Assembly: GCA_001803045.1 (NCBI GenBank)
Contig: MHAR01000053.1
Coordinates: 1-64,000, forward strand
Direction of reading: 5' to 3'
DNA length: 64,000 nt
Origin: Ignavibacteria bacterium RIFOXYB12_FULL_35_14
GTDB taxonomy: Bacteria; Bacteroidota; Ignavibacteria; Ignavibacteriales; Ignavibacteriaceae
The first letter of the stretch is position 1, and each line of letters starts with the position of its first letter. Below, one piece after another: positions 1,845 through 55,664 of this stretch. Both the position numbers and the translations under genes were made by a program. Below the pieces are notes generated by a model that worked only from the letters and a program-made list of their open reading frames with translations, did no database searches and was not told where the DNA came from.

Positions 1845-2048
1845 TTTAAATATGATCGATATAATAACTCATGTAACTCTAAGTAATGATATAAATTCGC
1901 AAACAAACCCAGTTCCTTTGATTATAGGACTATGCGTTCTGAAATGGATTTGCATACCTCACTTTTGAGCAAGAGGAGTTAATAATTATAGTTCATCATA
2001 AAGATGCGTACCTATAGTAAGGATACTATTAGATGTTTTTTGTCTAAA

Positions 2049-2090
2049 CCCCACGCTTCTCCCATAGGGATGCCTCTGGCAAGCGTGGGG
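2049..2090. repeat. Long imperfect hairpin, left unit of the element
   Basis: Outer arms CCCCACGCTT (2049-2058) and AAGCGTGGGG (2081-2090) pair perfectly. An inner hairpin, CCATAGG (2062-2068) with CCTCTGG (2073-2079), pairs at six of seven positions around a GATG loop. The core GATGCCTCTGGCAA (2069-2082) recurs exactly at 38168-38181. Confidence 0.75.
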
Positions 2091-2362
2091 AGTTTAATAC
2101 ACCAAGAATAAGATCGGGCTTTAGCCATAAATCGAGGGTAGTTATATCGCATGTTAAAATATGAGTACACACAGCTTGGGCTACTAAATACTAAGAGCAC
2201 ATATTGAGTAAAAATGTTAGAAAACAACTTTTCCAGCATTTGCGTGAGAACGTAAAAGAGAAATAGTTTAAATCGATTTCATTAATGGAGGTATGAAAAA
2301 CATACACCGAATGGTTTTAATCATCATGGCTAAAGCCCAGACTGCAGGTAGTTGTTGGGGTT

Positions 2363-2384
2363 ACCCCACGATAAATCGTGGGGT
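2363..2384. repeat. Near-perfect hairpin, right unit of the element
   Basis: ACCCCACGAT and ATCGTGGGGT are perfect inverted arms of 10 bp around an AA centre; a physical hairpin would probably use the outer 8 bp. It mirrors the left-hand CCCCACG hairpin. There is no T-run, so it does not look like an intrinsic terminator. Confidence 0.7.
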
Positions 2385-2512
2385 TAATTCATGTCTCGAA
2401 GAAACAACTCTTCGGAAAAAGTATGCATTATTATGATGAACCATAATTATTATATCCAAAAAATTTGGAGGGATCAAAAAAACCATTAGCTAGTCTATTC
2501 GGTTTTGATTCA

Positions 2513-38035: not shown

Positions 38036-38111
38036 CTTGATATTTCAAGACACCTTGCGATTAAGATTTTATAGCATTTTTTTAGAAGTCAATTGCTGAA
38101 GGAAAAACTTA

Positions 38112-38140: not shown

Positions 38141-38149
38141 TACATAGCC

Positions 38150-38340
38150 CCACCATTTTCACATTGTGATGCCTCTGGCAATGGTAGCGGGCAAGTGAAC
38201 ATTGAACTTCGGGCGTTAGCCCAATAATAACCGGTTTTTAATGGCTATCCATAGGATTTCTTTGGAAAAACCGTCATTTATGATGTTATAAAGTCCACCT
38301 CCTGAAGGATTTGGTTAATCCATTCAGGGTCTTGCGCAAG
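38150..38340 (+). other. Hairpin-rich non-coding region, possible structured RNA or repeat element
   Basis: At least four inverted repeats follow one another: CCACCATT/AATGGTAG (38150-38187) enclosing the core GATGCCTCTGGCAA (38168-38181); CGGTTTTT/AAAAACCG (38232-38239 and 38266-38273) with an inner ATCC-ATA-GGAT; a strong stem CCTGAAGGATT/AATCC-A-TTCAGG (38301-38328); and the palindrome CTTGCGCAAG (38331-38340). The core and TCGGGCGTTAGCC (38209-38221) recur, with similar spacing, in the element at 1981-2451. No reading frame is supportable. The flanks 38036-38111 and 38341-38418 show nothing else. It could be a diverged repeat or a transcribed RNA; the sequence alone does not decide. Confidence 0.55.
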
Positions 38341-38418
38341 GTGACTTAATAAGTAAAAATGTTTAGTTAAACTAAGTATTCCGTACGTTTATAAACATAA
38401 TTAGCTGGTATTGAAATT

Positions 38419-55590: not shown

Positions 55591-55664
55591 TCGGAACGGC
55601 GGGATTTGAACCCGCGACCACCTGAACCCCATTCAGGTACGCTACCGGGCTGCGCTACGTTCCG
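55591..55664 (-). tRNA. tRNA-Pro (anticodon GGG)
   Basis: A 74-nt tRNA on the minus strand. The acceptor stem CGGAACG pairs fully with CGTTCCG, the anticodon stem CCTGA/TCAGG encloses the loop ATGGGGT with anticodon GGG, and the T arm is CGCGGGTTCAAATCCCGC-type. C1:G72 is characteristic of bacterial tRNA-Pro. The CCA end is not encoded. Its 5' end is the base immediately after the TAA stop of the MerR gene, so it must be released from a merR-tRNA transcript by RNase P unless a promoter lies within merR. Confidence 0.96.

Follow-up and report, generated by a model that had tools for sequence, protein, structure and literature searches.

The 64,000-nt stretch of DNA analyzed here (the window) contains two sites, A and B, at which the 14-mer GATGCCTCTGGCAA occurs exactly (2069-2082 and 38168-38181), each core lying within a hairpin and each followed by a second motif, TCGGGC(T/G)TTAGCC (2114-2126 and 38209-38221), just as a first-pass annotation of this DNA had claimed. 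Its further claim, that the hairpin arms differ between the sites with pairing kept, also holds: the inner hairpin reads TCCC/GGGA at site A and TCAC/GTGA at site B, the apex pair reads CTT/AAG and ATT/AAT, respectively, and both differences are compensatory. The outer stem of copy B, CCCCACCATT / AATGGTAGCGGG, is less regular. The features assigned at the two sites are as follows:

1975-2011, plus strand: left arm of the outer inverted repeat of A, 37 nt, 84% complementary to 2421-2457
2049-2090, plus strand: hairpin at the left end of the putative decayed IS200-like element A, its apex occupied by the 22-nt unit; this hairpin lacks the insert in relatives with an intact tnpA
2060-2081, plus strand: unit copy A, TCCC-ATA-GGGA-TGCC-TCT-GGCA, absent from the relatives' hairpin and dispersed elsewhere
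2114-2126, plus strand: second motif TCGGGCTTTAGCC, the subterminal hairpin directly preceding tnpA, in the identical place in intact relatives
2141-2330, plus strand: tnpA (Y1 transposase) remnant with stops and deletions, located by tblastn
2326-2338, plus strand: ATGGCTAAAGCCC, which follows the tnpA remnant and is the second motif in inverse form; the inverted repeat is found likewise in relatives
2364-2393, plus strand: right-end hairpin CCCCACGATAAATCGTGGGG and TTAATTCATG, present in 12 of the order's 146 genomes
2421-2457, plus strand: right arm of the outer inverted repeat of A, pairing with 1975-2011
38047-38059, plus strand: left arm of the outer inverted repeat of B, 13 nt, 92% complementary to 38335-38347
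38148-38191, plus strand: diverged left-end-type hairpin of the putative element B, CCCCACCATTT / ATGGTAGCGGG, its apex holding the unit, assigned by local alignment to A and C
38159-38180, plus strand: unit copy B, TCAC-ATT-GTGA-TGCC-TCT-GGCA, with a compensatory change in hairpin 1, assigned from its sequence and the stem-variant scan
38209-38221, plus strand: second motif TCGGGCGTTAGCC of the putative element B, assigned by sequence
38335-38347, plus strand: right arm of the outer inverted repeat of B, pairing with 38047-38059

Taken alone, the 14-mer core is weak evidence and near chance, because TGCCTCTGGCA, allowing one mismatch, gave two matches against 0.42 expected, a number equalled in 6 of 100 shuffles. 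The second-motif pattern CGGGCKTTAGCC gave three matches against 0.10 expected (0 of 100 shuffles), and sites A and B align over ~48 nt with an E-value of about 5e-6. A third copy of GATGCCTCTGGCAA is found in the window's own genome (G000:C90:5253-5266; copy C, locus L003), where it is flanked by genes reading as lemA and htpX, and a stretch of about 400 nt can be aligned between copies C and A. Judging by these alignments, the two window sites and the third site elsewhere in the genome are homologous structures. Exact matches to GATGCCTCTGGCAA outside this genome were coding-looking or unrelated, except for a diverged unit in L041. A YbeY query against the genome contigs found no relatives.

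Each of the three sites looks like a decayed IS200-like (Y1 TnpA) transposon. The shared right end, ATAAATCGTGGGGTTAATTCATG (up to three mismatches), was recovered in 12 of the 146 genomes of the order, and at several of these loci it belongs to a frame with the order outer inverted repeat, CCCCACGCTTCAGCGTGGGG, GGGCTTTAGCCC, a gene of ~145 codons, ATGGCTAAAGCCC and CCCCACGATAAATCGTGGGG. At L064 the protein of this frame is a Y1_Tnp (PF01797, 90.7 bits) with PDB matches to the transposase IS608 TnpA, and Y1_Tnp is encoded in the relatives L058 and L061-L065. As the same frame surrounds the Y1_Tnp gene in these relatives, we take the second motif to be part of the IS200-like transposon, as its subterminal hairpin. 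Like members of the IS200/IS605 family, the host elements carry a Y1 (HUH) TnpA gene alone between their ends and have subterminal hairpins at both the left and the right end; the window copies differ from that family in being decayed. The catalytic motif of the host-element TnpA, YIKSQEEHH, is similar to that of subclass 1.2 in PMC6006769, a subclass listed there without flanking hairpins. The tnpA of copy A is broken, with internal stops (63% over 41 aa in a tblastn search with the L064 TnpA, E 2e-14), and less of the gene remains in copy C than in copy A. No tnpA was detectable in copy B, which retains the left hairpin and the subterminal motif only, and it is these two features that suggest that it belongs to the IS200-like family. 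In G001, a genome of the same genus, the whole element B stretch is missing at the orthologous site. Parts of element A were also observed in other arrangements: at L034 (G000:C23:34850-35170), between genes reading as thioredoxin and phosphoglycerate dehydrogenase, its outer arm and right end occur with the nested palindromes GTTGACTTCAGTCAAC and GGCTTCAGCC replacing tnpA, and at L036/L020 (G000:C71:64500-65200) its right outer arm lies downstream of a different Y1 tnpA, with GTCCC..GGGAC hairpins flanking.

On comparison with these relatives, the 14-mer core is part of a 22-nt insert in the apex of the left-end hairpins of the decayed transposons. This unit has the form TCCC-N3-GGGA-TGCC-N3-GGCA, that is, two hairpins, each with a 4-bp stem and a 3-nt loop, abutting without a linker; as read from the sequence, the two ends of the folded unit also abut, giving a nicked 8-bp dumbbell (GGGATGCC over GGCA^TCCC). 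Copies A and C carry the identical unit in the same host hairpin as CTTC-TCCCATAGGGATGCCTCTGGCA-AGCG, and the intact relatives read CTTC^AGCG or CTTT^AGCG, a difference of exactly 22 nt with no leftover. The site is likewise empty of the 22-nt unit in L060, the G001 orthologue of copy C. Because both the intact relatives and this same-genus orthologue lack the core, we rejected the idea that it belongs natively to the transposon end. The core is a separate double hairpin rather than, as first supposed, the loop of a single RNA motif whose stems drift; the outer stems change from site to site because the unit sits in the apex of host hairpins. We note as a caution that a pattern of conserved loop and changing stems can come from nested insertion and not from an RNA family.

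The 22-nt gain is exact and without target duplication. At four filled/empty pairs (L148, L216, L077 and L166) the 16+16-nt flanks showed no mismatch in 32 positions and zero gap, and no target duplication was seen; at L148 and L216 the filled sites are tRNA 3' copies beside intact tRNA genes, and at L077 and L166 they lie in other repeats. A likeness of the L166 hosts to integron attC sites was one of sequence look alone and was not established. A stem variant at L087:5490 likewise compares with an empty tRNA site with flanks free of mismatch and zero gap. The fetched loci hold 102 unit copies whose flanks are dissimilar; T stands at -2 in 79 of them and A at +2 in 66, with -1 and +1 variable, yielding the consensus-like target TTN^NAA. 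Thirteen units lie in a T-arm context resembling TTC^GAA. When flanks are joined, 18.6% of insertions fall in the apex of a stem of at least 6 bp, against 7.4% of nearby control positions (p 2e-4); hairpin-apex targeting is an enrichment and not a rule.

The unit occurs within the arms of tRNAs, in coding sequence and in tandem repeats, and most of its sites are outside stable RNAs. The T-arm copies are mostly in 3' fragments of tRNA genes, which led us to reject tRNA introns as an explanation; the sole otherwise complete gene is a tRNA-Thr(CGT) at L117:7109-7185 (minus strand; 32 bits in Rfam) with the unit in its T-loop. Duplicated tRNA 3' ends, each with a unit in the T-arm, were observed downstream of an intact tRNA at L148:2323-2640, L216:1499-1644 and L143:5472-5840. 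A separate observation concerns coding sequence: in Ignavibacteriales CROMO_A_84 (L085:647-3427, minus strand) one open mutS frame contains two units in opposite orientations, at about residues 135 and 383. The first adds SRRDAFG relative to E. coli MutS, and in that comparison the net gain of the mutS copy is 21 nt, not 22 nt.

Further copies and compensatory stem variants had been set beforehand as findings whose absence would count against the first reading, and many copies, variants included, were found. With up to one mismatch, CCNNNNGGGATGCCTYTGGCA is present in 46 of the 146 genomes of the order, in up to 32 copies each, and a reversed-pattern control gave a single match in the same 146 genomes. 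In contigs of 84,980 species, TCCCNNNGGGATGCCTYTGGCA marks at least 119 loci, where we estimate about four chance matches; 117 of the loci listed are, by record title, in FCB phyla (Bacteroidota, Ignavibacteria/Chlorobiota, Balneolales, Calditrichota and Neomarinimicrobiota), and the exceptions among the loci listed are L104 (Acidobacteria) and L129 (Gammaproteobacteria). Because many copies are carried inside larger repeats, the number of copies is not the number of insertion events.

In the ~1.29 Mb of DNA fetched, we counted 230 perfect double hairpins of 4-3-4/4-3-4 geometry where about 19 would be expected; the main family, for which most of the loci had been selected, makes up 169 of them. 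The loop rule of the unit (first loop RNA, second loop TNY) is followed by 11 of the other 61, on contigs likewise selected for the main family, against about 1.4 expected (p 1e-7), and the stems of these 11 include CTCC, ACCC, TGTC, TGGC, TCAC and CCAC. Unit members with other stems keep both the geometry and the loop rule. Among 172 units chosen by hairpin 2 and the flanking T/A, with pairing in hairpin 1 not required, hairpin 1 was TCCC/GGGA in 145, the compensated TCAC/GTGA in two, changed by G-T-type substitutions in three and mismatched in three.

In light of these observations we propose that the unit is probably a 22-nt non-autonomous mobile element, defined by its structure, which inserts exactly; a trans-acting enzyme may move it in the form of a folded single strand. 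We infer the single-stranded form: the unit would fold on itself until its ends meet as a nicked 8-bp dumbbell, and the enzyme would then join the folded strand in near TTN^NAA sites, preferentially though not only in hairpin apices, with no target bases duplicated or deleted. The compensatory changes in the stems could instead be read as those of a structured RNA family (cis-regulatory or small RNA), its three-way junction being an RNA fold conserved in leaders, and the window and C copies do lie upstream of co-directional genes. We regard this as very improbable, given that the adjoining and downstream genes are of unrelated types, that coding sequence, the arms of tRNAs and tandem repeats host the unit too, and that the outer stem is a part of the host element. 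A known RNA family was rejected, as an Rfam search of the window at gathering score gave no match at the motif sites, the only hit being a tRNA at 55591-55664. What survives of the first-pass proposal is a structured repeat whose core is conserved and whose arms change; the functional RNA family, lacking both an Rfam match and a common gene type, found no support.

Template switching in palindromes can yield compensatory changes, so that replication slippage, template switching or gene conversion between palindromes might account for the copies with no transposition at all, a reading with which the identical unit in the same host hairpin of A and C and the many copies inside larger repeats are in keeping. 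It is hard to reconcile with an exact-ended 22-mer in about 100 contexts with dissimilar flanks and in several phyla, and we consider it improbable. Spread at the RNA level, in which structured RNAs such as tRNAs and terminators would acquire the hairpin pair by RNA joining and carry it back to DNA via reverse transcription, would explain the preference for T-arms and hairpin apices and the unit in the T-loop of the otherwise complete tRNA-Thr gene; we give it similarly little credence, since most sites are outside stable RNAs and both orientations occur, even in one mutS gene. On our favored reading of a mobile folded strand, a single-strand DNA transposase of the Y1/HUH type, of the IS200/RAYT kind, is a tentative candidate for the mover. 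Y1 transposases are present in most of the genomes surveyed for the unit, and counts of Y1_Tnp and of the unit across genomes are correlated (Spearman 0.30, p 3e-4, uncorrected for phylogeny), a correlation too weak for Y1 transposase count to be retained as the driver of unit number. Given this and the three unit-bearing genomes in which no Y1_Tnp was detected, the Y1 transposase is a lead only. It is also conceivable, though we hold it with some doubt, that the unit represents a shape-defined class of mobile DNA, in which any nicked 22-nt dumbbell with 4-bp stems and an RNA loop followed by a TNY loop would be inserted exactly, with no duplication of the target, into the DNA of Bacteroidota-related bacteria by an activity that joins single strands and favors hairpin tips and tRNA T-arm sequences.

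Among known systems, we read the unit as akin to the double-hairpin elements of mitochondria and the small dispersed repeats of cyanobacteria. The latter (Elhai 2008, Genome Res. 18:1484) are reportedly mobile repeats of 21-27 nt with no coding capacity. They share with the unit very small size, noncoding nature and mobility, belong to a different phylum, and are likened to it here by description; Elhai's work is cited in PMC3116915 and PMC3733652. The double-hairpin elements (DHEs) described from the mitochondrial DNA of fungi (Paquin 2000, cited by PMC10085805) and the sponge RHEs (PMC2800124) resemble the unit in that two adjacent hairpins form one dispersed unit, which lies in intergenic DNA and structured RNA genes, encodes no protein and is presumed mobile. 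The unit differs in residing in FCB bacterial chromosomes, in being only 22 nt long, in its exact ends without target duplication, and in stems that vary while geometry and loops persist. DHE is a descriptive class. REPs and REPINs, mobilized by RAYTs (PMC3116915), are likewise short palindromic non-autonomous repeats, but they have a GTAG/GTGG guide tag at the foot of the hairpin, where the unit is flanked by TTN^NAA, and a basal stem of 7-20 bp (PMC6006769), where the unit has two 4-bp stems; the unit is moreover inserted singly and exactly. Based on guide tag and stem length we rejected a RAYT-type REP identity. The GC clusters of yeast mitochondria (GC42, PMC4478555) are also short, GC-rich, palindromic mobile units, but carry AG/ACT target duplications, none of which were seen for the unit. 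A full-text literature search of incomplete coverage retrieved no paper with the unit sequence and none on tandem hairpins; a prior description is possible.

If mobile as proposed, the unit would rank with the smallest mobile DNA units known, its range covering a superphylum, and would offer a test of whether insertion can be specified by nothing more than a folded single strand; its exact insertion boundaries make the responsible enzyme searchable. It may also account for hairpin motifs that recur in the genomes of Bacteroidota and Ignavibacteria, and for small insertions in proteins and interruptions of tRNA arms there. The unit was also observed on three viral contigs (L262, L263 and L264), in two of them in a T-arm-like context, and such contigs are a possible route between hosts. 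Finally, L115:5800-7010 contains four decayed IS200-like left ends within 1.2 kb, two with the unit and two from which it is absent.
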